The translations under genes and the position numbers were made by a program. The notes under the pieces were generated by a model. The model did no database searches and was not told the origin of the DNA. It saw only the letters and a program-made list of their open reading frames with translations. From positions 1-55,106 of the IMG/VR virus record IMGVR_UViG_3300036715_000866: a stretch of 55,106 bases of DNA; one strand, written 5' to 3'. The DNA comes from a virus. This document shows positions 4,113-52,519 of this stretch, piece by piece (within the stretch, counting starts at the first letter, position 1; the number at the start of each line of letters is the position of its first letter).

Positions 4113-4127
4113 AGCATATCGTCACGA
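4113..4127 (-). promoter_or_regulatory. Phage promoter motif, copy A
   Basis: Minus strand: TCGTGAC GA TATGCT. It lies in the 23-nt gap between the PAAR gene and the 381-residue baseplate gene. The TATGCT hexamer (4113-4118) is followed by 6 nt and then the ATG at 4106. It is one of nine copies of the same motif in this window. Confidence 0.75.
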
Positions 4128-4129
4128 CG

Positions 4130-4396
4130 CTACGTTGATATCCTCATGGCAGAACTACCTGTCGCCACGTGCCCGCAACTCGCCGCGTGCCCCGCGCGGC
4201 ATACTGGGATCGTGTTTATCCTGACGAACGGGCTTCCTTGCGCCATGACAGGGCCCCCATGGACGCCTTCTCCATGACCCGCGACGGAATCTCCCAGCAG
4301 CGCCCACAACGCGCCTTCCACGCGCACGAACGACTGCCCGCCACCCAGGATGGTGCCACCGGCACTATCGACGCCCACGCGAGCGATTCCTGGCAT
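4130..4396 (-). CDS. PAAR-domain tail spike tip protein
   Basis: The 88-residue Gly/His-rich protein (GGTILGGGQSFVRVEG, GHGEGVHGGPVMAQGS, CRAGHAASCGH) has the repeat pattern of PAAR proteins, which form the metal-stabilised needle point on the gpV/VgrG-type spike of contractile injection systems. Conserved His and Cys residues near 43, 47, 71 and 75 could bind the metal ion. It lies 2 nt downstream of the spike gene, as expected for the partner it caps. Length is normal for the family. Confidence 0.85.
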   Translation of the reverse strand: MPGIARVGVDSAGGTILGGGQSFVRVEGALWALLGDSVAGHGEGVHGGPVMAQGSPFVRINTIPVCRAGHAASCGHVATGSSAMRIST

Positions 4397-4398
4397 GA

Positions 4399-4980
4399 TC
4401 AGGGCTCGTTGATGTCCAGGCTTGGCGTGGTGATGACAATCCCGCCAGCCGTCATAGCCAGTGAAGTACCGCCCACACTCAGGACGATGCTGGTACCGTT
4501 CATTACCAACTTTGCCGCCCCGACTTCAAGCGCGATCTTGACCGCCTTCCCAGTGTTGTGTGTCGTCGCCCAGGACTTGTCGCAGTCGTCTCCGGTCAGG
4601 TCTTCGTGCGCGGCGCTCTCGCCGATGCGGAACATCGCGCCGCTCGGGTGGTGCAATTCCGTCTCGCCGTCGCGGCCGATGCTGAGATACACGTCGGAGT
4701 CGTGGCGCAGGATGGCGCGGCCGTCGGCGAAGCGCATCTGGGAGACGCGGCTGTGCAGGAAGCCGACCACAATCGGCACGCCGCCGTCCATAATATCTAC
4801 CAAGCCATAACCCGGCGCCGCTTCGGTGAACACCGGAAGATCGGCGACCCCAGTGCGCGCCGTCGCCGGCCCGGTCAGCACAGCAACACCCTTCATTTTC
4901 CAGCCGGTACGCCAGTCTTCCACGTCGACGGTGTAGGTATCCGGATGCGTGCCGGTGATCAGCATGATCTGGCTAGGCAT
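4399..4980 (-). CDS. Baseplate spike protein, gpV-like
   Basis: I use the ATG at 4980 (MPSQIMLITGTHPDTYTVDV); a longer frame upstream to 5097 overlaps the hub gene and is Arg/Ser-rich junk. The 193-residue protein has an N-terminal OB-like domain (about 5-85, including GYGLVDIMDGGVPIVVGFLH) and a C-terminal beta-helical stretch with repeating short strands (KLVMNGTSIVLSVGGTSLAM), as in phage P2 gpV and Mu gp45 central spikes. It overlaps the hub gene upstream by 8 nt and is followed by the PAAR tip. It would form the trimeric membrane-piercing needle. Confidence 0.85.
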   Translation of the reverse strand: MPSQIMLITGTHPDTYTVDVEDWRTGWKMKGVAVLTGPATARTGVADLPVFTEAAPGYGLVDIMDGGVPIVVGFLHSRVSQMRFADGRAILRHDSDVYLSIGRDGETELHHPSGAMFRIGESAAHEDLTGDDCDKSWATTHNTGKAVKIALEVGAAKLVMNGTSIVLSVGGTSLAMTAGGIVITTPSLDINEP

Positions 4981-6388
4981 TGCGTTCCGCCTGGTAGGGG
5001 CTGCCCTGGGCGCCAAGGCGACCGACGTAGCTCTCGCCTCGGGTGACTTGCAGCGTCGTCTTGAACGCATGGAACGGCGTGAAGCTGTGCGAGACACTGG
5101 TGACGTAGTGGCGCGTGGTGCGCGAACCGCGCTTGAGCATGACGTACATGCCGGCCTTGATCTTCTCGTTTCCGCGCATGCTGATCTGACCGTCTTCGTA
5201 GACCACGTTGTCCTGGTGGATACGCTTCATCTGGTCGCGCCGCTTTCCGTACCAGCGGCCCATTACAACGGCCTGCACCGGCTTTTCTTTGGTTTCCGCC
5301 TGCAACGCTGTCAGCGTCGAGCTTTCCGCGCTTTGCATGGTGCGCGCGAGCATCTTCTTCAGGCCGTAAATCTCTGGCAGGCAGTTGCGATTGTCGCGTA
5401 TCAGCGTCAAGCCGTTCTGAGTCGCCTGGACCTTGATCCAGTCCATATTCAGAATCTCGGCCATCGGCGCTTCGATCTGGAAGAAGTTGGCCAGATTGCC
5501 GTCGCTGCGCGACAAGCTCAGGCTTTCGACCTCATCAATACCGACTTCGATTTCAACCGGAGGCACCGCGCCTTCGGATGCCATGATCAGGTCACCGGCC
5601 AGGTCGTAGTACGGCACAGGGCGATAGACGACATAGGCTGCGTCCGGCCGATCTTCGATGAACAACTCGTTCCAGCCTATATCGCACCAGTTGGTCAGCA
5701 GCGTCCAGATGTCTCCCTCATAGTTAGGGATGCCGAACGGGCCGACGCGGGAACCGGTCACTCTGGCGTCGACCTTCAGCGCCGGCTCTTCCTTCAGCGC
5801 GCCCCACAACCAGACTTCGCCGATGAAGTTCTGCACAAGGCTGTTGACGATTTCCTCGACAAACTGCGACGCCGTGTGATCGCCGAACCACTTGCCGTAG
5901 ACCTCGAACATCGGGAAAGCCGTCAGCGGGAAGTTGCCGTAAACGTACTCTTTCAGATACGAAACCTGCATGATTTGCAGGAACTTTCCGAAGTCATGCC
6001 CGGTAATGGTGATGGTGCGGCGCGGCTTGCCGTCCTGGCCCATCGACTCGTCGCGGCTGACGTACGATACAAGGCCGCGCATGACGATAGGCAACTCGCC
6101 CTGTTGCAGCCGGGCGAAGCGAATGTCGAGCATGTCCATCGGCTCGATGGAGGCGTACATCGTGTCCAGGCTGCGCGCATTCATCTTGTCGGCGAGCACC
6201 ACTTGAAACGTCCCGGCCGGCTGATTCAGCCCGCGATAAGTTGTCACACCACCCATTTCGCCCAGATACGGCGTCAGGTCAATGGATTCGATCATCGATC
6301 CGGCGAGATAGGCGATGCGGTCGGCGCCAGAGCGACGCTGGACCTTCTTCAAGGTTACGCTGATCTTTGGTGCGAAGGTTTTGATCAT
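4973..6388 (-). CDS. Baseplate hub protein, gpD/gp27-like
   Basis: The 471-residue protein sits just upstream of the spike gene, where the hub (P2 gpD, Mu gp44, T4 gp27) is encoded. Beta-barrel-like segments are visible at about 45-130 (TFQVVLADKMNARSLDTMYA; DMLDIRFARLQQGELPIVM) and the C-terminus (KIKAGMYVMLKRGSRTTRHY) matches the late-control-D type ending. It connects tail tube to spike. The ATG at 6388 is 6 nt after the -10 of promoter copy B and lacks a good ribosome site, so a leaderless start is likely. Confidence 0.75.
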   Translation of the reverse strand: MIKTFAPKISVTLKKVQRRSGADRIAYLAGSMIESIDLTPYLGEMGGVTTYRGLNQPAGTFQVVLADKMNARSLDTMYASIEPMDMLDIRFARLQQGELPIVMRGLVSYVSRDESMGQDGKPRRTITITGHDFGKFLQIMQVSYLKEYVYGNFPLTAFPMFEVYGKWFGDHTASQFVEEIVNSLVQNFIGEVWLWGALKEEPALKVDARVTGSRVGPFGIPNYEGDIWTLLTNWCDIGWNELFIEDRPDAAYVVYRPVPYYDLAGDLIMASEGAVPPVEIEVGIDEVESLSLSRSDGNLANFFQIEAPMAEILNMDWIKVQATQNGLTLIRDNRNCLPEIYGLKKMLARTMQSAESSTLTALQAETKEKPVQAVVMGRWYGKRRDQMKRIHQDNVVYEDGQISMRGNEKIKAGMYVMLKRGSRTTRHYVTSVSHSFTPFHAFKTTLQVTRGESYVGRLGAQGSPYQAERNA

Positions 6389-6394: not shown

Positions 6395-6409
6395 ATAATG
6401 CTGTCACGA
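6395..6409 (-). promoter_or_regulatory. Phage promoter motif, copy B
   Basis: Minus strand: TCGTGAC AG CATTAT, then 6 nt, then the hub ATG at 6388. The motif lies in the 63-nt space between the small gene 6452-6706 and the hub gene. Confidence 0.75.
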
Positions 6410-6451: not shown

Positions 6452-6706
6452 TTACGCCGGGTTCCCGGCCCGAGGCTCAAACTCGATTGGCACCTTGATG
6501 ACCGCGTACAGATGGAACCTATTTCCCAGTGGGCACTGCTGGTCTTTGCTGTTGGCGATAGAGATCAGTTCGCCTAGTTCGCCAATCACGTTGGCGCAAG
6601 ACGCTAACGTGTCGTCGGCTGAAAAACGGCTGAGCAGCGGGTTGATAGAATTTGCAGCAAGGCGTTCTTTCGACGGCACCAGGTCGTTGATTACGCGCGG
6701 GATCAT
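6452..6706 (-). CDS. Small protein of unknown function
   Basis: 84 residues starting MIPRVINDLVPSKERLAANS at 6706, overlapping the stop of the KilA-N gene (ATGA, 6703-6706), so it is translationally coupled to it. It is mostly helical, with a short C-terminal strand (FHLYAVIKVPIEFEP). I recognise no family. A longer in-frame start at 6793 would lie inside the KilA-N gene and is not needed. Confidence 0.5.
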   Translation of the reverse strand: MIPRVINDLVPSKERLAANSINPLLSRFSADDTLASCANVIGELGELISIANSKDQQCPLGNRFHLYAVIKVPIEFEPRAGNPA

Positions 6707-7476
6707 TGCAGACCTCCCGGCAAGTCGGGCTGGACGCCGAACGCCTGCGCCAGGCGCGTCAAACCCTTTGGGGTGATCATCACCTGTTCGCACACACGCT
6801 CACCGCCATCAGGAAGTTCGATTGTCTTGACCTTGTGGGTCAGGTAGCCGGCGTTCACCTTGTCGGCGCGGCCGAGGTTCACGTTCGACCCGTGGCGCCG
6901 GTATATCCATCCGTTCTGCCGCATCCAGTCAACGAACTTGTTTGGCTTCTGCTGCAACGCCTTGCCGGCCGCCTGGAGGCCGAGCAGTCCGTCGGCCGTC
7001 GAGATGCGGTCCAGGGCTTCCGCCTTTGGTGCGGCGATGGCGAGTTGCGCGTCGACTTCTGCTTTCTGCTCTACCAGGGCCAGGCGCTCTTTCTCGGATT
7101 GCATCGCCAGTTCGAGCAACTGCATGCGGGTCAGTTCGACCGGCGCCGCCGTCACCAGCGCGTCATAGGCGCGGATGACCTGAAGGTGGAACCTAGCGCT
7201 GATCCACATCGCGTAGGCGTAGACCAACTCCTTGCAGGCGAATGTCCCAAGCCCTTGTTTTGACTGGATACCGGGAATTCCCGGTATCTCGACCTCGGCA
7301 ATCAAATCAATAACTTGTTGGCTTCTCAGCCAATCGGAAGGCTGGTGGCGTTTTTCGCCTCCCGCTGCCCGGTGCAGGTCGTTCAGGCAGTAGCGTCCAT
7401 GTCCATCCTGGCGGATGACGGACCCGGCGATGGTAAGAAGACTTTGGGATACGAGTTGATGGTTGTTGTCAGCCAT
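6703..7476 (-). CDS. KilA-N / KilAC (ANT) antirepressor-type DNA-binding protein
   Basis: The 257-residue protein has an N-terminal KilA-N domain (about 10-110: DGHGRYCLNDLHRAAG, SDWLRSQQVIDLI, ELVYAYAMWISARFHLQVIR) and a C-terminal phage antirepressor KilAC domain (about 140-250: FVDWMRQNGWIYRR, YLTHKVKTIEL, VMITPKGLTRLAQAFG). A Glu/Gln-rich helix (about 115-150) links them. Such proteins act in lytic-lysogenic decisions or anti-repression. A ribosome site (TAGGAGG) precedes the ATG. It lies inside the tail operon between tape measure and hub, an unusual place for a regulator. Its 5' side is a 415-nt intergenic region with repeated T-rich elements. Confidence 0.85.
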   Translation of the reverse strand: MADNNHQLVSQSLLTIAGSVIRQDGHGRYCLNDLHRAAGGEKRHQPSDWLRSQQVIDLIAEVEIPGIPGIQSKQGLGTFACKELVYAYAMWISARFHLQVIRAYDALVTAAPVELTRMQLLELAMQSEKERLALVEQKAEVDAQLAIAAPKAEALDRISTADGLLGLQAAGKALQQKPNKFVDWMRQNGWIYRRHGSNVNLGRADKVNAGYLTHKVKTIELPDGGERVCEQVMITPKGLTRLAQAFGVQPDLPGGLQ

Positions 7477-14782: not shown

Positions 14783-15598
14783 TTACGGATTGATCGAAAT
14801 AGCCACCACCGGGATATCGGCAATGACCGCATAATCGCCACCTGTCACGTAACTCGGCGCCAGGCAGGTGAAATCACCCATCGTCTGATACATCGGCGCG
14901 GCGTAGGTGCTGAAGTCCTCGGTGTCGTTCTGGCTGAAATTGACCTGAACCACACCCGCTGCATCGAATACCGCCAGGTTGGCCAGCACGATCCGCTTCA
15001 GCGCGCGGCGCAACTCGTTCCGTTCATCCGGGTTGAGCGACCAGCCCATCAACTCAATGCGGACGGCAGATAACCAGCCTTCCGTTTCGCCGTCTTCGTA
15101 GCCCATCAAATCTTCCCCGACAGCCCGATCAGCCTGCGAATCTGACGACAACTGTAACGTCACGATAGGTAGCGTCTCGTCCTTGTCCTGGGGCGGAGCG
15201 GTGCGCACCGGAATAACCCCTTTGCTGTGCGCCAGGCGGCCGGCGGCCACCTCGACGGCTAGCCCGGCGATCAGGCGGTCGCGTAGCAGGACCAGCACAT
15301 CGGTGGCGCCGTCGTCATAGGACGCCACCGGCTCCCCGGATACCACGCCGCCATCGGACCAGGCCGCGCCATCCCAGTGGTAGACACGGTAGAAGTAGGT
15401 GGCCCCGTTGACCAGGCCGGACACATCGAGAACAGCATGCTCCAGGCCAGAATGCACCAGGAGCGCGCCGGCATCGTCGTGCCCAGTGAAGGCGTCGGTA
15501 TCACGGCGCAGAATGCGTGAAATAAGCGTTCCGGTAGGGCGGGTGACGAACACACGCAGCGCGTTGCCGGCCATGAGAGGTTGCAGGGTGATGCTCAT
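14783..15598 (-). CDS. Virion protein with fibronectin III-like N-terminus, probable tail terminator region
   Basis: 271 residues. About 1-90 reads like an Fn3/Ig-like domain (RVFVTRPTGT, LVNGATYFYRVYHWDGAAWS). About 95-271 is alpha/beta with a long helix pair (LLRDRLIAGLAVEVAAGRLA; ERNELRRALKRIVLANLAVF) and several strands. Its place between the HK97 gp10-like gene and the sheath fits the tail terminator or head-tail joining slot. The family is not recognised. The gene contains a chance TCGTGAC copy at 15159-15165 that lacks the -10 half. Confidence 0.45.
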   Translation of the reverse strand: MSITLQPLMAGNALRVFVTRPTGTLISRILRRDTDAFTGHDDAGALLVHSGLEHAVLDVSGLVNGATYFYRVYHWDGAAWSDGGVVSGEPVASYDDGATDVLVLLRDRLIAGLAVEVAAGRLAHSKGVIPVRTAPPQDKDETLPIVTLQLSSDSQADRAVGEDLMGYEDGETEGWLSAVRIELMGWSLNPDERNELRRALKRIVLANLAVFDAAGVVQVNFSQNDTEDFSTYAAPMYQTMGDFTCLAPSYVTGGDYAVIADIPVVAISINP

Positions 15599-16431
15599 GT
15601 CTGCCCCATTGCCGCTCGCACATCGGCAGCGAGGGCTTCGGAAAATATTTTTTCCGCGACCGGGCGCATCTTGTCGGCCACGGTCCGCGCGGGATGTTTC
15701 CCGGCGATGGCCGAAGCGATCCAGCCGCGGCCGCCCTCTACCATGACCCGGAAGGTCAGGTACTGAGTATGCCTAGATCCTTCGCCCGGGTTCTGGAACT
15801 TGACCATGCCGGCCATGCGTTTCGCCGCAGTTCCGAACACGCCGGCCTGGTTGACCTGCGCTTCCTTGAGCCGCCCACCCCACATGTAAACGCGCTGCGC
15901 GACCCGCATCGGCGCGCGGGTATTTACGTCCCATGATCCGTTTCCCGACTCGCGCGTTCCGATGCCTATTACCCGAGACGGGTCCATCGCCTTGGCGAAT
16001 TCATGAACCGCCTCCGGCATCACGTTTCTGCCGAAGGTCTTGGTTCCCGGTATTCCCCAGCGGAACGGCACGATCAGGTAGCGTTTACCCTGCTTGCTCA
16101 TCCGCACCTTCATTGAGGTGTCGAGCATCTTCTTCAGGTCGCGCGCCGGTGCGCCTTCTTCGATGATCCTGGCGTAGGGCAAATCGCTGTATGTTTCCGC
16201 CGAGAACGGACCGGTCCTGAGAATCTGGATGGAATCCAGGTATCGCCCGCTGCGCGCCTGGATGGTAGATCCGTCCGGAAGCGGCGAACCACCCGCATAC
16301 CCTCGCCACATGCCTTGCGCGTGCGCAGCAACGCCCTCGACCGCACTGGACAGATTGGGGAGGTCTTCCGCTCGCAGCGGAAGTAGCGACATCGGGATGT
16401 TGAGGGTGATTGAAACAGGGAATCGTGGCAT
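15595..16431 (-). CDS. HK97 gp10-like neck/tail completion protein
   Basis: 278 residues. Central features are YARIIEEGAPARDLKKML, a basic MRMSKQGKRYLIVPFRW-like strand and GGRGWIASAIAGKHPARTVA near the C-terminus. The last segment, ending in a helix with ADKMRPVAEKIF, is characteristic of the minor structural proteins that complete the head-tail neck (HK97 gp10 group). It overlaps the downstream gene by 4 nt and follows the Cys-rich neck gene. Role inferred from these motifs and position. Confidence 0.55.
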   Translation of the reverse strand: MPRFPVSITLNIPMSLLPLRAEDLPNLSSAVEGVAAHAQGMWRGYAGGSPLPDGSTIQARSGRYLDSIQILRTGPFSAETYSDLPYARIIEEGAPARDLKKMLDTSMKVRMSKQGKRYLIVPFRWGIPGTKTFGRNVMPEAVHEFAKAMDPSRVIGIGTRESGNGSWDVNTRAPMRVAQRVYMWGGRLKEAQVNQAGVFGTAAKRMAGMVKFQNPGEGSRHTQYLTFRVMVEGGRGWIASAIAGKHPARTVADKMRPVAEKIFSEALAADVRAAMGQT

Positions 16432-20383: not shown

Positions 20384-21043
20384 TTACTGCATGATTTTGG
20401 ACAGCAGACCGCTATCCGGGACTTGCTGGGCACGCAGGGCACCATCCACCAGCGCGGCTTCGCGCCAGGTGATCCTGCCCTTGTCTGCGGCGGCATACGC
20501 CTTCGCCATGATGGCTTCGGCGGTCAGGGAGGGAGCCTTGTCGGCCACGCCGGCAACAGCCTTGTCGGAGATCGACAACGTGGTCTTGCGCCCGGCGCCC
20601 TGACTGCCGATGGCGGCAACCTGAGACTTGAGCAGCGAGATTTCCTTGGCTTGCTTGGTCACGGTGGCCGAGGTGGACTTAAGCATGCTGACGGCCGCGC
20701 CCAGGGCTTTCGCCAGGTCGGATTCGGATTCGTCGATCCGGCCCATGAGCGCCTTCACCAGGGCGGTGCCGTCGATTGCTTCGACTTCCTCGCCGTTGAT
20801 GGTGGCGGTGAAGGACTTGCCCATCGGGTCGCCTTCGTCTTTACCTTCTTCGTCCTCGCGGGCTTCACGCTCCTCGCGCTCCTCGCGCTCTTCGTCGGTT
20901 TCCTCGTCGCCATCGGCCTCGCCAGCCTCACCGGCAGCGGCAGCGGCCTTGATCTTGGCGTCGTCGGCCCCCTCGTTCGGCATGGCTTTCGCCAGCGTTT
21001 CCATGTCTTGCAGTTCTTTCAGCAATTCGGCGTATGCGCTCAT
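20384..21043 (-). CDS. Scaffold-like capsid assembly protein
   Basis: I use the ATG at 21043 (MSAYAELLKELQDMETLAKA), which overlaps the protease stop (ATGA). The 219-residue protein is highly charged: an acidic run at about 40-75 (DEETDEEREEREEREARED), then long helices (ALGAAVSMLKSTSATVTKQA, KEISLLKSQVAAIG). It sits between protease and major capsid genes, the standard scaffold slot. It would be a core for prohead assembly and then be degraded by the protease. Confidence 0.65.
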   Translation of the reverse strand: MSAYAELLKELQDMETLAKAMPNEGADDAKIKAAAAAGEAGEADGDEETDEEREEREEREAREDEEGKDEGDPMGKSFTATINGEEVEAIDGTALVKALMGRIDESESDLAKALGAAVSMLKSTSATVTKQAKEISLLKSQVAAIGSQGAGRKTTLSISDKAVAGVADKAPSLTAEAIMAKAYAAADKGRITWREAALVDGALRAQQVPDSGLLSKIMQ

Positions 21044-22002: not shown

Positions 22003-22061
22003 CGCGTAGCATTGCGCTACGTCTTGGCGGCCCTAAATGGCCCTCTCTACGAGGTGACGCT

Positions 22062-22076
22062 AATCTAGCGTCACGA
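22062..22076 (-). promoter_or_regulatory. Phage promoter motif, copy C (capsid operon)
   Basis: Minus strand: TCGTGAC GC TAGATT. The motif starts inside the last codons of 22071-22268. The bases GTGACGCTA and TAGCGTCAC here form an inverted repeat with a 3-nt centre (22054-22074), unlike other copies. It would drive protease, scaffold and capsid genes with a leader of about 55-80 nt. Confidence 0.65.
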
Positions 22077-22268
22077 CTTCAGGAAGAACAGAACCGTCTT
22101 GTCCTGCACCGCCTTCGCCATGGTCTGGCTGAATGGCACGTCGCCCTTGCAATGCGGGCAGATGGCGACCAGCGACGCGGCCTTTAGCACTAGTCCGGAC
22201 GTGCGAATCATGGTTTCTCCGCCTCGCGACTCGCGCAATAGGTTGGTTCCGCACTTGGGACAGTTCAT
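22071..22268 (-). CDS. Small zinc-ribbon protein
   Basis: 65 residues, MNCPKCGTNLLRESRGGETM at the N-terminus and CPHCKG at about 37-42, giving a four-Cys zinc ribbon of the Com/rubredoxin-like type. These small proteins are often RNA- or DNA-binding or scaffolding. It overlaps 22265-22639 (ATGA) and is the last gene before the promoter C. Its stop overlaps the promoter motif. No more specific role can be assigned. Confidence 0.6.
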   Translation of the reverse strand: MNCPKCGTNLLRESRGGETMIRTSGLVLKAASLVAICPHCKGDVPFSQTMAKAVQDKTVLFFLKS

Positions 22269-22639
22269 GCCGCCTTCCTGGCGTCTTCGGCTTCCTTCTC
22301 CTTGGCGCGCAAGGCATCGGCTGCGATTTGCTCGACCTCCATCCTTTCGTAATCCGTGCGCAGTTGTTCCTGTTGCTGCTTTCTGTACGAAACCACATCT
22401 TCAGATGGCGCGCTCCCGTTTCCGACTATCACCAGAGTGTTTTCCTGGTATCGCGGTCCGGGCTGTGTGTAATACTCCCCAGGCAATCCCTTCGCCGCCT
22501 CGAACAGCATCTCCGCTGCGCCTGGGAAGAAGCGGTATTTGTCGGCATACTTCATGTCGGATATGACCGCACCGATCTTCTTCCACCACACGTCGCGTCC
22601 ATTGCGGATGAACAACCTTTCGTCGTTTGGTCCTGACAT
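22265..22639 (-). CDS. Helical protein of the cargo region, unknown function
   Basis: 124 residues, start MSGPNDERLFIRNGRDVWWK at 22639. A compact N-terminal part (DMKYADKYRFFPGAAEMLFE) is followed by a long charged coiled-coil-like C-terminus (YRKQQQEQLRTDYERMEVEQ onward). It overlaps the zinc-ribbon gene by 4 nt. I recognise no family. A longer frame upstream to 22684 overlaps the broken gene 22640-22989 and is unlikely to be used. Confidence 0.5.
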   Translation of the reverse strand: MSGPNDERLFIRNGRDVWWKKIGAVISDMKYADKYRFFPGAAEMLFEAAKGLPGEYYTQPGPRYQENTLVIVGNGSAPSEDVVSYRKQQQEQLRTDYERMEVEQIAADALRAKEKEAEDARKAA

Positions 22640-34800: not shown

Positions 34801-35969
34801 CACAGGCCGTCCGGCAGGGTCTTGTCGAGCGAGGTGTCGATGAAGTATTCCTCGGCCTTGCCCAGGTCTTTCTTGTCGTCCTTCAGCAGCGATCCGCGCG
34901 GGCCGTAGGGGGGATTGCCGATTGCGATGCCGACACGGCGCATATCCTGGGTGGCGAACCGCTCCAGGCTGGCGTTGACGATTTCATGGCCAGGATGCAG
35001 CGCCACGGCAATCTTGGAAGAAACAGGGTCCAATTCAACCCCGATCACCTTGACGCCTTGCGGCGCGGTATGCAGGAACACGCCTGTCGCGCAACTCGGC
35101 TCCAAGGCGGTTCCCTCCGGGAAACCAAGGCGCGCTGCGACAGCCCACATGGCGCCTGCCACGGCCGGGTCAGTATAGAACTCGTTGAGGCTGTCGCCGC
35201 AGCCGCCATTGCCGGAATATTGGCGCAGCACGGCAAGGTCGGCTTCGCTCATGTCGACAGGAGCCTTCTCGGCTACCAGGCGCGCGGCCTCGGCGTTGAG
35301 CGCGCGCCGTGCTGCCTTTCCGATACCGGCCGGGACGCCGAAGGTCGGCATCCTGGCTGGGTCGTAGGCTTCAGTGGTGGATGCCGGCGGCGTAGGGGTG
35401 ATGGTTGTTTCCACCTTTGGCGACTCGGCCGCCTTCGCATCCCATTCCGCCTTCAGTTCCGCATGCGCCGCCGTACCAACCGAAGGAATTCCGCCGATGC
35501 GGTCCTTGGCGAAGTCGGAGAAATACTTGAAGTCGGACGCCGACCGCTTTGCCTTGACTGGCTTCGGTGCGTTCGCTGGCGAAAACAGATCATCCACTGC
35601 CGGCGCCGGAGGGGTCATAGCCAACCGCGCTTCAACCGCATCCGCCGTGGTCTTCCCGACCCTGGCCATCTCCGCCACGAGGTGTGCGCGCTGCTCGCCG
35701 GTGAGCCCGTCCAGCATCGAGGCAATGCGGCGCTCGCCGCCCTTCTTGGCGATGAATTCACCAAGGATGTCGCGGGTTCCCTTCGGGGCCGGCGCTTCGC
35801 CGAATAAGTCGTTCTGCTCTGGAGCCTTCGGTTTGTCGGCGCGCTTCTTGCGATGGGTGGCGGCAGGGGGAACGAAGGTACCCTTCTTGTTGACGTATCC
35901 CGCCTGCATAACAGGCATGTCGAATAGTGCGGCCTGGTCTGCCTTGAGCAGAAAAAGAATGTGCTTCAT
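28821..35969 (-). CDS. DarB-like DNA methyltransferase-SNF2 helicase (with intein), anti-restriction
   Basis: 2382 residues (2025 after intein removal). The start is the ATG at 35969 (MKHILFLLKADQ) with CAGGACC upstream; an earlier ATG at 36095 would lie upstream of promoter F and in the Res stub. Features: module with AGYVNKKGTFV (about 20-35); N6-adenine methyltransferase with NPPY at 352-355; helicase with Walker A GLGK-T interrupted by the intein (residues 935-1291), DEMH at 1452-1455 and QRNGRGLRQG at about 1771; basic C-terminal third. P1 DarB has this same order of MTase then helicase and is injected to protect DNA from type I restriction. Function here is inferred. Confidence 0.8.
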   Translation of the reverse strand: MKHILFLLKADQAALFDMPVMQAGYVNKKGTFVPPAATHRKKRADKPKAPEQNDLFGEAPAPKGTRDILGEFIAKKGGERRIASMLDGLTGEQRAHLVAEMARVGKTTADAVEARLAMTPPAPAVDDLFSPANAPKPVKAKRSASDFKYFSDFAKDRIGGIPSVGTAAHAELKAEWDAKAAESPKVETTITPTPPASTTEAYDPARMPTFGVPAGIGKAARRALNAEAARLVAEKAPVDMSEADLAVLRQYSGNGGCGDSLNEFYTDPAVAGAMWAVAARLGFPEGTALEPSCATGVFLHTAPQGVKVIGVELDPVSSKIAVALHPGHEIVNASLERFATQDMRRVGIAIGNPPYGPRGSLLKDDKKDLGKAEEYFIDTSLDKTLPDGLCVMVVPAGIMDSKNGRAFRERMLRKAEFLGAQRMPNSAFEASHTDVTADIIYLRKRPDEVAGALGTVGQDVLRKLGVWDDEFLGGGYFEKRGAGNLFGSAGTAKRAFGEIYTVNGSMNGVPEEIAKFVPHPVGSTPDMPAILEALGDDAARNRAMTGAKSIPYQDTAKVGDIRTIDGVDYVLQGNPPRWRRVDEAMQTEAVTEAQALAGELDRLMTGQAADRPKLEADIRAWVARHGVPANNPNLLVAAATDKTLYRLIGAVGKDGALSDVVTGRMADRIEGTFDTVAHSLALKHESGEFTLDELAEAMGKDRDETLDHLTADASYAWGGLDRWAPMNFYLTGELWPKLDAAQALLANAALPPGMREKVEAQVKRLEDVIDAKSLEDVEIKVNSAFIPLRILDAWRDAQVAQAQADYPTSTYYQGLEPSSVTFDKGVYYVSGGVSDPLLTKYLNRSGVKKDDLPLVEKMNDEFKTWLAASKYREEVEDLYNRKFKGFVPKEFSGEPIDVPGLANHDKIKDYQWPGLRWALASGKGIIAADVGLGKAQPLDAKILTPAGWKLMGDIQVGDLVIAGDGTPTEVTGVFPQGAKEIFRVTFSDGAATECCAEHLWLTQTQIEKNNARRGCGDGGIPKVRALAEIMQTLRYRGSRNHAIPMIKNVEFAGPEVPLHPYLLGALIGDGSLVGFSPAITKPEQAILDAIAGMLPSGMIGKQFAPEGNRPSLRLRRDVIDCTTRNAVGAVLDVLGMKVHSPEKFIPDAYKFNSSEVRLAVLHGLMDTDGYVSKNGCAVQYTSTSQRLADDVVFLVQSLGGNAWISTKTPTFTHKGEKRTGRLAYTVGVRMPSGVVPFLHSRKVERFRESTKYLPIRYFDTIEPVGVKPAQCISVAHPSRLYVTDNFIVTHNTLRGLLLARMSKINGSAKKPGIVVPKSVLANWYAECQKWFPSAKVLTIGAEFTMKDGKLTGRDDNANERKRKYHDLSQNDYDFVIISEPAFQELDLDPITKENYYSKDFWVQRGDSLEQAGDKRRKRIKEAYEQAIAQREIGKRTDAIYFNDIGIDMLIADEMHHQKNLYAAKTRFGEAPKFLGGQGLSDRSMDFNLKARWLLENHGGKGIYGLTATPTKNSPLEIFSMLSHIAPEAFENIGIRNSEDFLDRFCEFTKDNILNTRGEIEEALVTSGFKNMGELREIMKRYIDRTTAEQVGLMLPARDDHLHFVTMSPAQEAVYADLRIQLEESARDKDATGDSHIFSIMDKMNKAALDLEILDPVAHAGEKSPKYAALAKHVAEGLADGGQVVFSDYIDSHDKIVAALVAAGIPRDKIGVINAQVASSSVKRQNIADAYNSGKLLVVIGNTATMGEGLNLQKGTTDIHHADLPWEPASMQQRNGRGLRQGNISEAVRIHTYLSKGSFDGYRHQAIAAKKDWQDLIWGGGDRVENLSREGKFSREDIQIMMAADPDAARAKFAADKALATAQHEAGERVKAASEFVRFQELKAGFKALKNKGTATAARLKQKLDAAHTALKSNRFFTAKAALDSDVPTVIQPQTGEAYHAGVAFQAVNDAGVDEGKFVVTGVNVRAGTVTVRDYAGTEKHSVDLETLRHGITHFKYDPEAEAKEVAAKMEKAAAEKVNSLKKYEDVYAMPSNVLTANKDAIQRQLFEGALGYKVAFPYQTPMVNKATGKVEMMKSYEIKGKEGTHDFLLPTDENKKKVEDAWMDARRTRTFGIDYVTRKPGKTETRAMSKYRDTGYDQRGVNPYSQLVNDQNQEKQSYGATTPTIRALKKRFEKQQLERVRRAKTFTEAIREAAPLGNVINPEKGHGAGVRWNRRALAILWAKARHDGVLGREMKSLVPKAPESRYDSGLHDAYAYHHTQDMSVHNALYRMAVESGQRDLAVAMAKAAEKHHPEGNAREALAAMSRGWGHTAAELRAMLKVAEKSGDADMTMAALGLTHNGLLQDYRYSGNSNRTVRDVIEESLNIAEKREAEGASKSKEAA
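32097..33167 (-). other. Intein with LAGLIDADG endonuclease, class 3-type
   Basis: 357 residues inserted after K934 inside GLGK|T of the helicase Walker A. It starts with Ala1 (AQPLDAKILTPAGWKLMGDI), not Cys or Ser, and ends VTHN before the extein Thr. Block B has C61xxH64-L-W66, block F has C337 (AQCISV), and the +1 residue is Thr: the Trp-Cys-Thr set of class 3 inteins, which use the block F Cys as first nucleophile. LAGLIDADG-type motifs LLGALIGDG (128-136) and LHGLMDTDG (227-235) show a homing endonuclease. Splicing is needed to restore the ATPase. Confidence 0.9.
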
Positions 35970-35995: not shown

Positions 35996-36010
35996 ATGAT
36001 GGCGTCACGA
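35996..36010 (-). promoter_or_regulatory. Phage promoter motif, copy F (DarB-like gene)
   Basis: Minus strand: TCGTGAC GC CATCAT, 5 nt after the stop of the Res stub. The DarB-like ATG at 35969 follows after a leader of about 20 nt containing AGGA, so this copy gives a normal Shine-Dalgarno start, unlike A, B, D, G and H. Confidence 0.75.
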
Positions 36011-42114: not shown

Positions 42115-43260
42115 TTACGGTTTGATGGTTTCGAGTTGCGCCTGCATCCAGGCAATGAATTTCGGGTCGGCGCCTGGCATGACCTTCGGCATCAATGACC
42201 ATGTACCCCGGCAGTTTGGATGCTGGATGCCTGCCGCCGGCCAATAGCGTTCATCCGGCTCGCGCTCGACCAGGACGCCGCCGATGCGCTTCATCGGGCT
42301 GGCGCTGCGCCCGACGTTGGTTTTCCCTACCCAAACTTCGGCCCAGCCGTCCTTGTTTTCCTTTGACGGGTCCACCAGGTCGAACACCATTCCGGCGATT
42401 TTCTTGCAGAACGGGCAGGCGTTGTAGGCTTCGACGCGCTTGACGCGCGATCCGGCTGGCAGCGAAGACAGGAAGCCTTCGTTAGCGTCTCGGGCTACTT
42501 CTGAGATGGCGACGCGGCGCCAATCCCTGTTGAGGATGGCGAACTCGTCTTGCAGCCTGGATTGCAGGTTCCACATCGAGGCGTCCGGGCGGCCCATGAC
42601 GCGGCCTTCCTCATGCTCGATGATGACCTGGCGGATGCGGTGGCGAACGCGCTCGCCGATGTCGGCGATCAACTCCCCGGCGCGAAGCGTGGCGAAGTCC
42701 AGGACTGCCGACTGGTGCGCGGTGATGGTGGCCACCTCGTCGACAATGCGCCGAGTCACCGGCGCCTCCGCTACCAGCATTGACTTCGCCGCTTCAGTCG
42801 GGCCGTGCGGCTCGATATACGCCTGAATGCGGCCGGCGAACACCGCGCGCACCGCGAGGTATTCGGATTCGGTTTCGATCACGCCGGACGGCAGGTATCG
42901 CTGGAGCAGCCAGTCGATGACGTGGAGCCAGTCGGCCATTTCGTACTCGGAAGGCGCCTTGTCGCCCAGGGAGTGCATGGCGGCGTCCAGATCGGAAACA
43001 TCCCAGCGCCGCCACGGCTCAGCCTTCGCCAGTTCAAGGCCGAGCAGCGAGAGCAGCGTGGATAGAATACCGTCCAGGATAGCCAAGCCGCGCCGGGTTA
43101 CATCCTCGATATGATCGCGGACATAAGGGTCATGGTGCGGCTGCCAGATGGAATCGTCGGGCGGGTCTCCAAGCGCCTTGTGTAGGTCGTCCAGGACATG
43201 ATCGGTGCATCCGCATGATAGCGGACCGAGGTCAAAGAGAAGCGGCGCATGAGTGTCCAT
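42115..43260 (-). CDS. MuF-like minor head protein
   Basis: 381 residues from the ATG at 43260 (MDTHAPLLFDLGPLSCGCTD). The C-terminal half has the phage Mu gpF pattern: RRVAISEVARDANEGFLSSL, YNACPFCKK and GIQHPNCRGTW, with paired Cys/His residues likely to bind metal. It would sit inside the head near the portal and may be ejected. An earlier ATG at 43269 lies within the promoter G -10, so the start at 43260 (7 nt after the -10) is preferred. It heads a new transcription unit. Confidence 0.75.
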   Translation of the reverse strand: MDTHAPLLFDLGPLSCGCTDHVLDDLHKALGDPPDDSIWQPHHDPYVRDHIEDVTRRGLAILDGILSTLLSLLGLELAKAEPWRRWDVSDLDAAMHSLGDKAPSEYEMADWLHVIDWLLQRYLPSGVIETESEYLAVRAVFAGRIQAYIEPHGPTEAAKSMLVAEAPVTRRIVDEVATITAHQSAVLDFATLRAGELIADIGERVRHRIRQVIIEHEEGRVMGRPDASMWNLQSRLQDEFAILNRDWRRVAISEVARDANEGFLSSLPAGSRVKRVEAYNACPFCKKIAGMVFDLVDPSKENKDGWAEVWVGKTNVGRSASPMKRIGGVLVEREPDERYWPAAGIQHPNCRGTWSLMPKVMPGADPKFIAWMQAQLETIKP

Positions 43261-43267: not shown

Positions 43268-43282
43268 ATGATGACGTCACGA
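43268..43282 (-). promoter_or_regulatory. Phage promoter motif, copy G (MuF gene)
   Basis: Minus strand: TCGTGAC GT CATCAT, then 7 nt, then the MuF ATG at 43260. It lies in the 30-nt space between the barrel-like gene and MuF. Confidence 0.75.
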
Positions 43283-44044: not shown

Positions 44045-44452
44045 TCAGGGCAACAGTTTGGCGTTGTCTGCCAATTTGTAAACCATGTAAACCACGGCGC
44101 CAAGGATCACGGTAATGATCATGACATTGTCGCGCAGCCAGCGCATGATCGACCAGAACCCCTTGATCTTGTCCCAGGTGTCAGGCCATTCGGCCAGTTT
44201 ATGCATCGTGCTGGCTATGGCAGCCAGAGAATCCCGCATCGACCCGACGCTTTGCGTCATGTTGTGGACATCCTGGCGCAGGCCGTATACCTCGGAACTC
44301 AGGGCAGCCACGGCGGCATTCACTACACTAATCTGATCGTGCACTTCGCCATGCACCGCCTCCACCTTGGCCTCTAAAGCATGAATTCGCTTTGACTGTG
44401 AATCCGCGCGCCGCTCCCCACCATCCCATTCGATGGTTCCCTTGTCGTTCAT
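44045..44452 (-). CDS. Coiled-coil protein with C-terminal membrane helix
   Basis: 135 residues. About 1-85 is a coiled coil (SKRIHALEAKVEAVHGEVHD); a single hydrophobic helix is at about 106-128 (NVMIITVILGAVVYMVYKLA). This layout is seen in phage membrane proteins of holin-like or superinfection role. It starts at the last base of the portal gene, so translation is coupled to it, and ends 2 nt before the barrel-like gene. Confidence 0.5.
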   Translation of the reverse strand: MNDKGTIEWDGGERRADSQSKRIHALEAKVEAVHGEVHDQISVVNAAVAALSSEVYGLRQDVHNMTQSVGSMRDSLAAIASTMHKLAEWPDTWDKIKGFWSIMRWLRDNVMIITVILGAVVYMVYKLADNAKLLP

Positions 44453-46215
44453 TACTCAATCCCCCAAATTCTCAAAGCCTTGCCAAAGTCTCCCTGGCGC
44501 TCGTCACCATCATCCTGCCCAAAGTCGCCCGCGCGATCCTCCCCGCCGGCATCGGTACCGGCTGGGGGAGCCCCTGCCTCGGGTGGTGGAGTATTCGTTT
44601 GCGGCTGGCCATCCTGCCCTGGCATGCCGCCTTCTTGTCCTGGCTGGCCATCCTGCCCTGGCATCTGGCCGAAGTCCTGCTGCGCGGCCTGCTGTGCCTG
44701 CTGCCAAACGCCTACCAAGGAGGGATTGAGCGGGGCATCGCCCCAGTCGCCGTCGGCCTTCTTGTGGCCCATCTCGGCGCGCATCTCGTTGACCGTCAGC
44801 ACCAGTTTCTTCTTCTCGTGCAGCTTCTCCGGGTCTTCCGGGTCCAGTCCGGTCCAGCGGAACGCGAACTTGTCGGAGAAGTCGGCAATCACGAAGTCGG
44901 ACAGAATGCCCTCGAAGTAGGACAGCAGAGGCCGCAATCCCTTGTCTTCCGAGTGCGCGATCTTCTCTGCGGTGTCGCTTCCCGACAGCGCGCTGGTATT
45001 TCCGCCGGTGAAGCTGTCGAAGTTGATCTCTTGCGGCGACATGCCGTAGATGGCGCAGGCAAGCGACGTTAGGAACGTCATCCACTTGGCGAAATACATC
45101 TCGTTGAACTCGATACCGAAGTTCTCGAACGATGCCTTGCTCTCCTGGTCTTTGCTCACCAGCACCGGGAGCGACCACGAGTTGTTAACGCCCTTCACCA
45201 TCGCGTTCCAGTAGCGCCGAAAGGCCGCCAGGTCATCGTTGCTGTAGTCGCCGGAGAGGTGAAGCAGCCCGCGCGGGATGCTGTTCTCGTCGAATCCCCG
45301 AATGTTGTGCGTCATCGCGTTTAGGAAGCCAGTGACCACGCGGATCAGCAATTCCGTTTCGCCAAGGCCATAGCCGGCGAGCCGCACGTCAGAGCGCGGG
45401 TTGCGCGGCTCATAAATCAGATCGTCATGAGTGTAGGCCGTGACGATACGGGAATTCAGCGTCTGCACCGCGAAAATCTCGTCGTCGCCCTGGTAGCCAT
45501 CCTCGCTGCACAGGCGGATTGTAGCGCCATCTACGGCATAGAGCCCGTCGATCCCCTGCTTCTTGTCCTTCTTGAACTCGGTCTCGATGGGGGCCGCATC
45601 CATCGTCAGGCTGTCGCGCGTGAGCTTGCCCATGAACTGGCTGAAGTTGTCGCGCTTGAGGCGTTTCCTGGCGCGCGGATTGAATTCCCATCCACAGTGG
45701 CTGACGAAACGCCGCAGCAGGTTGACGCTCTCCTGTTCGGAAGATGTCAGCGTGTGCTCGGGGTCCAGGTGGACGATGGAGAAGCCGGGGTTTCCGTCGT
45801 CCCTCTCTTGAGGGATGCAATACCGCTGCACCTGGCGCAGGCGGGTAAGGACGATGGCGCTCAGAATTGGGACCTGGTCGACCATGCTGCGCAGGGTGTC
45901 GAAACCAGCGGGCGCCGGCTTCTCGAAGTATTCGCCCGCCGTGAATATCTGCCACTTGTCCAGGTAAACCGACTGCATGCCGCCGGCATTGCGCCTCTTG
46001 GCGTCGGCGGGGAGGTCGATCACCATGGCCTTGTTCATCGCCTGAGAGACGGCGAACTGTTCGCGCAGGTCTTGCACAAAGGCGCCGGCCGCATGGCTCA
46101 AGCCGGTGCCGATGCTGCGCGGCGCGTGCGCCTTGGTCAGTTGTGCCAGCGCATCCTGCCGTTCGTCGGCTGGCGCGCGTGAATCGAATGCAACCAGGCG
46201 AACGTCGTCGCTCAT
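44452..46215 (-). CDS. Portal protein
   Basis: 587 residues from the ATG at 46215 (MSDDVRLVAFDSRAPADERQ), overlapping the HNH stop (ATGA). The middle (about 90-430) has the portal signature: VPILSAIVLTRLRQVQ, a clip/stem region (SRIVTAYTHDDLIYE), WMTFLTSLACAIYGMSPQEI and the helical crown EDKGLRPLLSYFEGILSDF. The C-terminal 90 residues are Gly/Pro/Gln-rich with a repeated PGQDGQP. Its dodecamer is the DNA entry channel. The next genes are the membrane protein and MuF. Confidence 0.8.
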   Translation of the reverse strand: MSDDVRLVAFDSRAPADERQDALAQLTKAHAPRSIGTGLSHAAGAFVQDLREQFAVSQAMNKAMVIDLPADAKRRNAGGMQSVYLDKWQIFTAGEYFEKPAPAGFDTLRSMVDQVPILSAIVLTRLRQVQRYCIPQERDDGNPGFSIVHLDPEHTLTSSEQESVNLLRRFVSHCGWEFNPRARKRLKRDNFSQFMGKLTRDSLTMDAAPIETEFKKDKKQGIDGLYAVDGATIRLCSEDGYQGDDEIFAVQTLNSRIVTAYTHDDLIYEPRNPRSDVRLAGYGLGETELLIRVVTGFLNAMTHNIRGFDENSIPRGLLHLSGDYSNDDLAAFRRYWNAMVKGVNNSWSLPVLVSKDQESKASFENFGIEFNEMYFAKWMTFLTSLACAIYGMSPQEINFDSFTGGNTSALSGSDTAEKIAHSEDKGLRPLLSYFEGILSDFVIADFSDKFAFRWTGLDPEDPEKLHEKKKLVLTVNEMRAEMGHKKADGDWGDAPLNPSLVGVWQQAQQAAQQDFGQMPGQDGQPGQEGGMPGQDGQPQTNTPPPEAGAPPAGTDAGGEDRAGDFGQDDGDERQGDFGKALRIWGIE

Positions 46216-46517
46216 GCGAATACCTCGGGATGTGTTTCCAGCGCCCAGCGCATTGAATGGACAGAGGCCATCGCCCATTCGGCGTTTCGTTGCTCGCGGC
46301 TCAGGTAGACATTGTTCCTGCCGTCCACGGCGTCATGGCAGGCGTGGCACAGGAAGGCGGGGATGTCGGCCGACTTGTGCCTGGCGCCCTTGCCCATGCT
46401 TTGCATGTTGGCGTGCGCACCGACCACGGTTCCGTCGTTCGGCACTCCGCAGCAAAAGCAGCGCGGCGCGCTGCGTGCCAGCGCCAGCAGCTTCGAATTG
46501 CGATAATTGGTGCTCAT
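46212..46517 (-). CDS. HNH-like nuclease (DUF1364-type)
   Basis: 101 residues from the ATG at 46517 (MSTNYRNSKLLALARSAPRC). CFCC at about 20-23, AHANMQSMGKGARHKSADIP and FLCHACHDAVDGR at about 55-67 resemble the DUF1364 group with an HNH-type zinc fold. HNH nucleases next to terminase and portal genes help cut DNA for packaging in many phages, which fits here. An earlier ATG at 46526 is inside the promoter H -10. Spacing is exactly 7 nt from the -10 to the ATG, with no ribosome site. Confidence 0.65.
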   Translation of the reverse strand: MSTNYRNSKLLALARSAPRCFCCGVPNDGTVVGAHANMQSMGKGARHKSADIPAFLCHACHDAVDGRNNVYLSREQRNAEWAMASVHSMRWALETHPEVFA

Positions 46518-46524: not shown

Positions 46525-46539
46525 ATATTGGCGTCACGA
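46525..46539 (-). promoter_or_regulatory. Phage promoter motif, copy H (HNH-portal)
   Basis: Minus strand: TCGTGAC GC CAATAT, then 7 nt and ATG at 46517. On the other strand the same 60-nt gap has a TATAAT for the homing endonuclease, so this is a divergent promoter region. Confidence 0.75.
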
Positions 46540-49710: not shown

Positions 49711-51828
49711 TCAGTTTGTTCGTCGCACAAAGTAGTCGCAGCCCGGCGCTGCCTGTTTCACCCGGAAGCCGCGCTGGACACACATTCCTATCGCCCCGTC
49801 GAACCCGGTGCAGCGCCCGCATACCTCTCCTTCCACCGGGACATCCAGCATCTTCGCCGCCAGGGATGCCGGCATGCCGGGGATGTTCTTTACCAATTCC
49901 GACACGTCCTTCTCCATCGGTTTCGAGTCAGGGAAGAACACCATCCCGGCCCCGTGATTCCTCGCCCAGGCAACGTCGCACAGCATGTTGGCGTAGCTGT
50001 AGTGGGGGTCGATGCCGACTTTCGCAACTTTGGCGCGCGCCTTGCGGGCCACCTGCATGCCGCCGGCCTTGGCCTTGCTCTCGTCGCCTTCGTTCTCGAC
50101 GATCAGCGCCGTCTTCGTAAAGTGGTTGAACACCCAGTCGCGCAGCAGAGCAACTCGCTCCTTCTTGCCGTTGACCATTACGTCCTGCTCCAGGGCGTCT
50201 GGGTCCGGGAACAGGCAGAACGGTACCAGCTTTCCGTTAACCACGTCGCCGCGAATCCGGAACAGGCTAGTCTGCATGCACTTGTACTGGTTCAGGTTGA
50301 CGGTGTATCTGCTGCGATCGTCCTCGGCAGTCTTCTGGTCAGACCGGCTCAACTGGTCGCCCCACAGCATCATGTCATCACGTAGGTCGCCGTAGCCAGC
50401 CAGGAACACGCGGCCCCGATGGCTGATGCCGCGCTTCTGGTCTTCGAAGTTGGCGAATCGCCTAGCGTCGTTGACGTTGGGCAACTGTTCGACCACGCAC
50501 ATCGCCACGCCAAACAGTTCCATCAATTCCGTGCAGCGCGCAAACGGGTCCAGGTCGAACACGGCCTCGACGTGGACTACGGCCTGCCGGCCATCCGGCA
50601 GCCGCTTCTTGATGATGACTGCATTGAAGCCGCCCATCTGGTCGATGCCCATGTAACAGTCGCGGCCGTGCGTCTGCCAGGTCAGGCCGATACGCATACC
50701 CTCTTCGGCCGCAGCGAGGCAGTGTGCCATCGTTACCGGCAATTGCTCTGCGTCGATGTAGGGCCGGGCCAGGGTGCGGTTGTAGAAGCTCTTTTTCTGG
50801 TGCCCGGTCTTGGCGCGGTTGTACCCCTCGATCATTGCGCGCGGCGTCATGCGCGGGCTGATCGTGCGCGGCAACAGGAACGACCTGATAGTTCTGCTTG
50901 CGTTCGGCGCCGTCTCGACCACTTCGCCGATTTGAGGGTCTTGTATCCAGCCGCCGCAGACCGGGCAGGTCCAGACGTACTCATTCATCGGCGCCCCCGG
51001 AAACTGCCCGTTGTTGTAGCCGATCGATTTGTCCGGGAAGATGCCGGCCGGGTCGGATAGGTCGGACAGGGCATCGCAATGCGGGCAGCGGGTGTGCCAC
51101 ACCTCCTGGGTCCCCTTCATGTACCAGTAATTGATGTCGTATTCCGGCATGTTGGCAGTGGACAGCATCAAGGCGAAGCCGATTTCCGAGTCGCCCATCC
51201 GCGCCAGCACCTTGTCAATGTGGTCCAGCGCAATTTCCTGGACTTCGTCTAAGCTGACGATGTCCATCGGCCTGGATTCGGTCGTCACCTTGCCGGTCGT
51301 CCAGAGGAACAGGAACATCGACTCGCCCATGACGCGGGTGAGGATGTTGCCCTCTCCGACGCGCTTGGATTTGCCCTCTTCATCGGGCCGGAAGATCAGC
51401 CGGCGTAACAGGTCCGGCACTGAGCGCACGATGCGCATGAACCGGTGCTCGCTCTTGTGGCTGGCCGTGGCCTGGTCTGGCATGAACATGCCGACCGTGA
51501 TCGGGCCGAACTTCAGCGCCATGTAGATGTGCGCCAACACCTCCCAGACGGTCAGGCCCAACTGGGTGGACTTCTGCACCACCAGGATGCGCCCGGCCGC
51601 CTCTTCCGGCGTTGTCGGGATGGCATCGTAGATCGGGATCAGCGCCGGACGGTTGTCCAGGGTGAACGGCTTTCCGTCGATCTTCATGCCGCGCGCGGCG
51701 AGGTCGTTGCACCACTGGCGGAAGGTCATCTCGCGGGGTAAGGTCTTGCTACCATGCGGCAACTTGGCGGTTATTTTCGCCATTGCCGCTTCAAGCCCTC
51801 CTCTAAGGTCAAAGTTTCGCTTGCCCAT
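49711..51828 (-). CDS. Terminase large subunit, GpA-type
   Basis: 705 residues. ATPase: RILVVQKSTQLGLTVWEVLA (about 80-100) is the adenine/Walker A region, with PMDIVSLDEVQEIALDHIDK (about 188-207) as Walker B and catalytic acid. Nuclease region about 390-600 with DxxD-type motifs (CYMGIDQMGGFN). The end has a Cys-rich finger (CGRCTGFDGAIGMC, then CDYF). Family members cleave and pump DNA into the prohead. It starts at the last base of the small subunit gene (51828). Confidence 0.9.
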   Translation of the reverse strand: MGKRNFDLRGGLEAAMAKITAKLPHGSKTLPREMTFRQWCNDLAARGMKIDGKPFTLDNRPALIPIYDAIPTTPEEAAGRILVVQKSTQLGLTVWEVLAHIYMALKFGPITVGMFMPDQATASHKSEHRFMRIVRSVPDLLRRLIFRPDEEGKSKRVGEGNILTRVMGESMFLFLWTTGKVTTESRPMDIVSLDEVQEIALDHIDKVLARMGDSEIGFALMLSTANMPEYDINYWYMKGTQEVWHTRCPHCDALSDLSDPAGIFPDKSIGYNNGQFPGAPMNEYVWTCPVCGGWIQDPQIGEVVETAPNASRTIRSFLLPRTISPRMTPRAMIEGYNRAKTGHQKKSFYNRTLARPYIDAEQLPVTMAHCLAAAEEGMRIGLTWQTHGRDCYMGIDQMGGFNAVIIKKRLPDGRQAVVHVEAVFDLDPFARCTELMELFGVAMCVVEQLPNVNDARRFANFEDQKRGISHRGRVFLAGYGDLRDDMMLWGDQLSRSDQKTAEDDRSRYTVNLNQYKCMQTSLFRIRGDVVNGKLVPFCLFPDPDALEQDVMVNGKKERVALLRDWVFNHFTKTALIVENEGDESKAKAGGMQVARKARAKVAKVGIDPHYSYANMLCDVAWARNHGAGMVFFPDSKPMEKDVSELVKNIPGMPASLAAKMLDVPVEGEVCGRCTGFDGAIGMCVQRGFRVKQAAPGCDYFVRRTN

Positions 51829-52445
51829 CAGAGGAAGGCAGCCGTGGTCATTCCGTAGGCGCGGTTCAACTCGGCCATGCGGTCAAGAATTTCCTGCTGG
51901 GCCTCGGGCGAGACCTGCCCAACCGCCTCGGTGACCGCCTTGAAGAAGGCCTCCAGCCTGTTTACGTCGGCGAGAAATTCCATGACAGAAGCCGACGCCT
52001 TGATGGCGTCGAGACGAATTCGCGCCGATTGCATCAAGGTTTTGGTGGATTTGATCTTAGCCTTTCCGTCTTCTCCCGTTACGAGCGCCGCGTCCCGCAA
52101 CAGGTCAGCCGCGCGCAATGCCTCGTTCAGATGCACCAGGTAGTCGATTGTCTGGCTGACGTTCTCGACGCCGTTCTGAATCACCGTCCCAGGCGCCAGA
52201 GGCATTGGCATCAAATCTTTCGCCCGATGGACCTCGCGGATGACTCTTTGCGTCGCCTTCTTTGATACGCGCCCGGTCGCGCCGGCCGCGCCGTTCTTGA
52301 AATTCTTGATGGCCCGCCAGAAGCTCGATTCCGACACCCCCGGGAATTCCGCCCGCACAAGCGCCCACTTCGCCATCCCGTGCTCGCTTACGTGAGCAAC
52401 GATGGCGCGTTCAAGACCTTGGAAATCGACCTTACTCTCGTCCAA
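51828..52445 (-). CDS. Terminase small subunit
   Basis: 205 residues, TTG start at 52445 (MDESKVDFQGLERAIVAHVS) with AGGG 8 nt upstream. The N-terminal helices (AKWALVRAEFPGVSESSFWR, about 25-45) make a DNA-binding HTH; about 60-160 is helical for oligomerisation; the C-terminus faces the large subunit. It precedes the large subunit with overlapping ends. Promoter copy I is about 60 nt upstream. It would recognise the packaging site. Confidence 0.75.
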   Translation of the reverse strand: MDESKVDFQGLERAIVAHVSEHGMAKWALVRAEFPGVSESSFWRAIKNFKNGAAGATGRVSKKATQRVIREVHRAKDLMPMPLAPGTVIQNGVENVSQTIDYLVHLNEALRAADLLRDAALVTGEDGKAKIKSTKTLMQSARIRLDAIKASASVMEFLADVNRLEAFFKAVTEAVGQVSPEAQQEILDRMAELNRAYGMTTAAFL

Positions 52446-52504
52446 CTGTCAGCCCTAAGTGTTTGATTTGTCGCTTTACTTCCAGATACTTTCAATGAAC
52501 GTTC

Positions 52505-52519
52505 AGATTACTGTCACGA
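52505..52519 (-). promoter_or_regulatory. Phage promoter motif, copy I (terminase)
   Basis: Minus strand: TCGTGAC AG TAATCT. The leader to the TTG at 52445 would be about 53 nt. This is the right-most copy and would start the whole structural block. Confidence 0.7.

Follow-up and report, generated by a model that had tools for sequence, protein, structure and literature searches.

The element TCGTGAC-N2-YANNNT, which the initial annotation of this viral DNA had taken for a phage-specific promoter class, is most probably (probability about 0.85) the family-wide late promoter of a clade of ~85–98 kb myoviruses (PHB04/Dolphis/Touem01-like). The proposal is strongly supported by sequence, namely by the location of the element before orthologous late genes, its strand bias and its occurrence in prophages. 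One compact element, G-TCGTGAY-NN-YANNMT, extending from about −22 to −7, would drive the virion and packaging genes, with the hexamer acting as the −10 element and the TCGTGAY box replacing the −35. Its probable reader would be an activator or specificity factor encoded by the phage, which would bring in the host RNA polymerase. The more interesting part, overlooked in the initial annotation, is that the element often abuts the start codon: at five of the nine sites originally listed, and at about half of all sites, the placement predicts a leaderless mRNA.

The window, which is the whole of a 55-kb virus record (55,106 nt), contains the tail, capsid, portal and large terminase genes of a myovirus. 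A re-scan recovered all nine of the listed TCGTGAC copies with their hexamers on the minus strand, and the motif is confirmed as a real feature of this DNA. The list was one short, as a tenth match at 15151–15165 had been overlooked. The bare heptamer is not enriched in the window (12 occurrences vs. 8.3 expected). The full pattern, TCGTGACNNYANNNT (TCGTGAC-N2-YANNNT), has 10 matches against 0.16 expected, and none of the shuffled sequences reached 10. The reversed-pattern control gave 0, and all 10 matches are on the minus strand. The YANNNT frame comes after each of the 10 minus-strand copies of TCGTGAC that the window contains (binomial p ~1e-18), which bears out the invariance of A at hexamer position 2 and T at position 6. 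By our gene calls, 8 of the 10 sites are intergenic (p ~4e-7, a value resting on the ~10% of the region that lies outside called genes). The assertion that the copies are always between genes is correct for these eight and fails for 15151–15165, which is inside a gene, and for 22062–22076, which overlaps the end of an ORF. The abundance on both strands and within genes that had been named as evidence to the contrary is not seen.

The putative promoters, all on the minus strand as are the genes they precede, differ in their distance to the start codon. At 4113–4127 (TCGTGAC-ga-TATGCT) the predicted start, 4106, is the A of the ATG of a virion structural protein gene (phrog_1011; 2961–4106) that has no Shine-Dalgarno sequence. 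At 6395–6409 (TCGTGAC-ag-CATTAT) the predicted start, 6388, is the ATG of gene 4973–6388, the product of which is a tail protein with lysin activity. Both sites are therefore of the predicted leaderless type. An antirepressor-like gene with KilA-N and ANT domains (6703–7476, minus strand) is located among the tail genes. The tenth match, 15151–15165, lies within gene 14783–15598 and has an off-consensus hexamer, TACAGT. Because G at hexamer position 5 is absent from all 47 intergenic reference sites, this match is probably due to chance. Gene 15595–16431 (minus strand) marks a local inversion: it runs in line with the structural operon, to which its homologue is antisense in each of the seven named relatives that were examined. 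The copy at 22062–22076 (TCGTGAC-gc-TAGATT) precedes the head maturation protease gene (21040–22002) with a leader of ~50 nt and overlaps the end of an unsupported ORF (22060–22398) just upstream of that gene; the protease genes of relatives carry the same promoter.

Two copies flank a terminator-like hairpin. The one at 28333–28347 (TCGTGAC-gc-CATCAT) adjoins the hairpin and its T-run, in agreement with the earlier description of a copy (box from 28341) directly following a terminator, and its predicted start, 28326, is the ATG of the helicase gene 23590–28326, again the leaderless arrangement. The other, at 28484–28498 (TCGTGAC-gg-CATCAT), lies ~125 nt before the hairpin (~28374–28351) and would probably yield a short transcript without a long ORF. 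The stretch 28498–28351 (minus strand), from this copy through the hairpin to the next promoter, holds only a 26-aa frame, whose ATG is before the predicted start, and a 6-aa frame, and perhaps specifies a small late RNA. At 35996–36010 (TCGTGAC-gc-CATCAT) the ATG (35969) is 26 nt away and opens the gene of a giant methylase-like/SNF2 helicase protein (28821–35969, minus strand). A LAGLIDADG/Hom_end insertion near residues 1187–1260 of this protein suggests an intein. The copies at 43268–43282 (TCGTGAC-gt-CATCAT; ATG 43260, gene 42115–43260) and 46525–46539 (TCGTGAC-gc-CAATAT; ATG 46517) have the 7-nt spacing of the leaderless type. The second of these belongs to an HNH-endonuclease-like gene (46212–46517, minus strand), which thus has its own leaderless-type promoter just upstream of the portal gene (44452–46278). 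The last copy, 52505–52519 (TCGTGAC-ag-TAATCT), lies upstream of gene 51828–52445 and the large terminase gene (49711–51828) and has no ATG at the predicted start point.

Judged by the capsid protein, the nearest named relatives of the virus are Aeromonas phage ST4, Bordetella phage PHB04, Pseudomonas phages Dolphis and Jeremy, Enterobacter phage phiT5282EW and Yersinia phage fHe-Yen8-01, followed by Touem01 and Mecenats66. As the genomes of the named relatives are ~86–96 kb, the record apparently represents slightly more than half of a genome of this kind. The element is found before orthologous late genes in the Bordetella, Aeromonas, Pseudomonas, Yersinia and Enterobacter phages, and before the protease gene in PHB04, ST4, Dolphis, fHe-Yen8-01, phiT5282EW and Touem01. 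In five annotated relatives, 24 of the 25 exact TCGTGAC sites with a hexamer are intergenic and oriented in the gene direction, and TCGTGAT occurs as a second form of the box. When every 7-mer was ranked de novo, strand by strand, by its excess before N2-YANNNT, TCGTGAC/T came out on top for seven of the eight genomes ranked, namely the window, PHB04, ST4, Dolphis, fHe-Yen8-01, phiT5282EW and Touem01. The top 7-mer was on the late strand each time, and the other strand had none comparable.

Conservation of the motif was likewise observed directly in a wider collection. The pattern is present in 33 of 34 IMG/VR and phage records retrieved via gp072 or the capsid protein and in all 16 records of a second set, that is, in 48 of 49 distinct records, one being common to both sets. 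The sole miss is a 30-kb fragment, Mecenats66 has one match only, and reversed-pattern controls gave zero or one match per record. The strand bias of the element recurs in dozens of further contigs. A direct pattern scan of viral contigs was rejected, its matches being mostly due to chance at that collection size. In Mecenats66, a member of the same clade, the box persists at no more than two orthologous places, and there the hexamers (TTTAAT and GATAAT) fall outside YANNNT; the GATAAT copy sits just before an ATG. Several late genes of Mecenats66 (L140, L141) have a TANAAT-like hexamer with no TCGTGAY box; a hairpin and a T-run come directly after it and extend as far as the ATG. Our literature search found no paper describing the motif.

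The consensus G-TCGTGAY-NN-YANNMT was obtained from 47 and then from 220 unique sites. The search pattern dictates the core and, within the hexamer, the Y, A and T; outside the window these positions are not independent. Free of the pattern are the G at box position −1 (85%), the last box base (C in 84%), hexamer position 1 (C in 78% and T in 22% of the 220 sites) and hexamer position 5 (A or C). Upstream of the G no conservation was detected in either the 47 or the 220 sites, and since these positions are flat there is no −35 element; the initial annotation had TCGTGAC take its place. The start point, deduced from ATG spacing, would agree with a −10 element. The preference for C at the first hexamer base is poor for sigma70.

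An ATG is found at offset 6 (n = 90) or 7 (n = 27) after the hexamer in 117 of the 220 unique sites, while any other offset accounts for at most 12 sites. Frames of at least 40 codons are opened by 112 of these 117 ATGs, and none of the 112 has a Shine-Dalgarno sequence; among starts located 20–60 nt from the element, half have one. For each of the 85 offset-6 starts, the box TGA lies in frame 18 nt before the ATG, ruling out any start beyond it. As the GTGA within the box confounds Shine-Dalgarno scoring, the test in the annotated genomes was redone to account for it, giving 0 of 20 promoter-adjoining genes vs. 63% of other genes (Fisher 3e-9); this absence is partly a matter of geometry, as box and hexamer fill the space, but the genes are still without one. 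The N-termini of the ST4, PHB04 and Touem01 proteases align from these ATGs.

Transcription starts ~7 bases after a −10 hexamer. With an ATG at offset 6 or 7, the RNA would therefore begin at the AUG. A start 6–8 bases downstream is also known for phage sigma promoters (PMC8948821). The start codon thus coincides with the predicted start point and lacks a Shine-Dalgarno sequence, and we predict that the late mRNAs at these sites are leaderless, with no ribosome-binding site. Such mRNAs would be translated by 5'-AUG (70S-type) initiation, and the read-through mRNA arriving from upstream, having no Shine-Dalgarno sequence at these starts, would be translated poorly.

In the named genomes, many promoters with a spacing of 24–40 nt sit on the 5' edge of an inverted repeat whose other end is close to the start codon. 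There the read-through RNA is predicted to fold strongly and the RNA made from the promoter itself is not (MFE p 2.5e-4), and the excess stability over controls is lost in the interval +1 to +6 after the hexamer, immediately ahead of the predicted start. The metagenomic set shows no hairpin excess (p 0.58). For this reason hairpin nesting was rejected as a family-wide rule, and we treat the predicted hairpin class as a feature of some members only. Within the window, 35996–36010 is one candidate for this class: a hairpin is computed over the start in the read-through RNA (z −3.2) and none in the promoter's own RNA.

To address phage specificity, we searched twelve bacterial genomes carrying gp072 relatives for the 24-base form of the element, with ATG at +6. 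The matches fell in a capsid- or gp072-bearing region or contig in 5 of 6 cases in Microvirga, 7 of 7 in Mesorhizobium and 7 of 7 in Geminicoccus. Both Azospirillum matches are on one contig; Caballeronia has 5 matches on four contigs and an Oxalobacteraceae MAG has 1. The other six genomes had no 24-mer match, and the controls for this search gave zero. In these genomes the 24-mer falls mostly on prophage regions or contigs, which shows its phage specificity at the level of sequence.

In architecture the closest known system is that of P1, a ~95-kb myovirus in which ~11 late promoters, served by the Lpa activator, have a box instead of the −35, a short distance ahead of the −10 (PMC10695390). 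In P1 this box, a repeat of 9 bp (LPhot AAGTTACTT, LPpac ATGTGACTT), sits at −22, with 4–9 bp between it and the −10. Unlike this AAGTTACTT-type inverted repeat centred at −22, the box of the clade, GTCGTGAY, ends 2 bp before the hexamer. Lpa (151 aa) has no cysteines, in contrast to the gp071 and gp072 candidates discussed below, and the two P1 promoters examined lie 22–35 nt before their genes. The promoters of the phiEco32 sigma gp36 are likewise single contiguous elements without a −35, with the start 6–8 bp downstream (PMC8948821). The phiEco32 element, tAATGTAtA, is unlike the box of the clade. In T4, the late promoters of e, soc and I-TevI are inside hairpins that hide the ribosome-binding site (PMC2988022, PMC3014915). 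Some promoters of PHB04, ST4, fHe-Yen8-01, Dolphis, phiT5282EW and Touem01 resemble these in lying at the 5' arm of a hairpin present only in read-through RNA, but the promoter sequence is different and the metagenomic set shows no such general rule. As for mRNAs starting at or near the AUG, lambda cI is a leaderless phage mRNA. In phiKZ the late promoter is TATG, the G being the start, and is used by the phage's own multisubunit polymerase (PMC5312081). The clade differs from both in that leaderlessness would be built into about half of its late promoters through a distinct 16-bp element.

Several candidates for the factor that reads the box were examined. The non-structural genes common to all complete relatives include gp068, gp071, gp072 (PHB04 numbering), the primase, helicase, SSB and recombination genes, and the search for an RNA-polymerase specificity factor is thereby narrowed to a short list of universal genes. 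The cysteine-rich, zinc-type proteins gp071 and gp072, encoded outside the window at the head of the late-direction operon, are candidates, as yet unproven. They could act as an early-made activator or a sigma-like partner of host RNA polymerase, a tentative assignment that we rate as rather unlikely. Each of the 32 near-complete records has both genes, a universality equally true of the replication genes. No box was found within 400 nt upstream of any of 50 gp072 loci, so that gp072 could sit above the cascade, and box density is five times higher downstream than upstream; yet gp072 relatives are also found in bacterial genomes lacking the capsid and the 24-base motif (Cupriavidus, Pseudomonas GV085, Methylobacterium, Neisseriaceae), and Mecenats66 has both genes but few boxes. 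The AlphaFold model of gp071 is confident (pLDDT 91) and shows a zinc ribbon whose best structural matches, the RNA polymerase subunits RPB9/C11, are not significant. The gp072 model (L144:10001–10519 and relatives) is also confident (pLDDT 85.5), but a structure search with it gave no match in the PDB. The HTH protein gp104 was rejected as an obligatory factor, as it was not found in 8 motif-bearing records, which favors the pair. Also examined was gp015, the product of the antisense gene inside the structural operon, which is universal; because it has a weak HK97-gp10-like match, its only one, and is in line with the structural genes in the window, it is probably structural. The AraC and TraR genes were rejected as not universal by annotation. 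A divergent phage sigma reading box and hexamer, as gp36 does at phiEco32 late promoters, would account for a contiguous element without a −35, for a start 6–8 bp downstream and for a C at −12 unlike sigma70. We nevertheless consider it unlikely, slightly more so than the gp071/gp072 pair, as no recognisable sigma is common to the clade: among 29 related genomes, sigma70 region 2 (PF04542) was detected in 1, and region 4 above the cut-off likewise in 1. An exception within the clade is one relative (the IMG/VR record behind L264; G045:83240–83716), which has a protein with a clear sigma70 region 2 and a weak match to region 4.

The element could also serve some purpose other than transcription. 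That half of the copies adjoin an ATG at a fixed distance would suit a signal acting on the RNA or on translation ahead of start codons. Roughly every second copy lacks an ATG there, however, many of these being 20–60 nt before an ORF start, half of them with a Shine-Dalgarno sequence; the hexamer has its A and T at the spacing of a −10, and one copy in the window directly follows a terminator-like hairpin. These features make such a signal improbable. A repressor, replication or packaging site near gene starts by chance is more improbable still: the box GTCGTGAC is near-palindromic, as such a site might be, but it is strictly oriented on one strand with the genes, has a fixed spacing to the hexamer and ATG, and occurs in ~10 copies over the late operons. 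We thus infer promoter activity, with the start point, the factor and the mode of translation as parts of the same model. Counted against the late-promoter reading are the C at hexamer base 1 (78%), the few boxes of Mecenats66 and the geometry of the Shine-Dalgarno absence.

The late-promoter reading provides a working model for a large, almost unstudied group of phages with alpha-, beta- and gammaproteobacterial hosts, with enough sequence precision for the annotation of hundreds of starts. In such hosts leaderless translation is regarded as weak. If the model is correct, structural genes would be systematically expressed from leaderless mRNAs there, which would raise the question of how the phage makes this translation efficient. 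A more speculative possibility, one we consider doubtful, is that a new non-sigma factor, perhaps gp071/gp072, fixes the start on the AUG, and that many of the late virion proteins are made only from late-promoter transcripts, through leaderless initiation, while early read-through is silent. If so, the choice of transcription start would license their translation.
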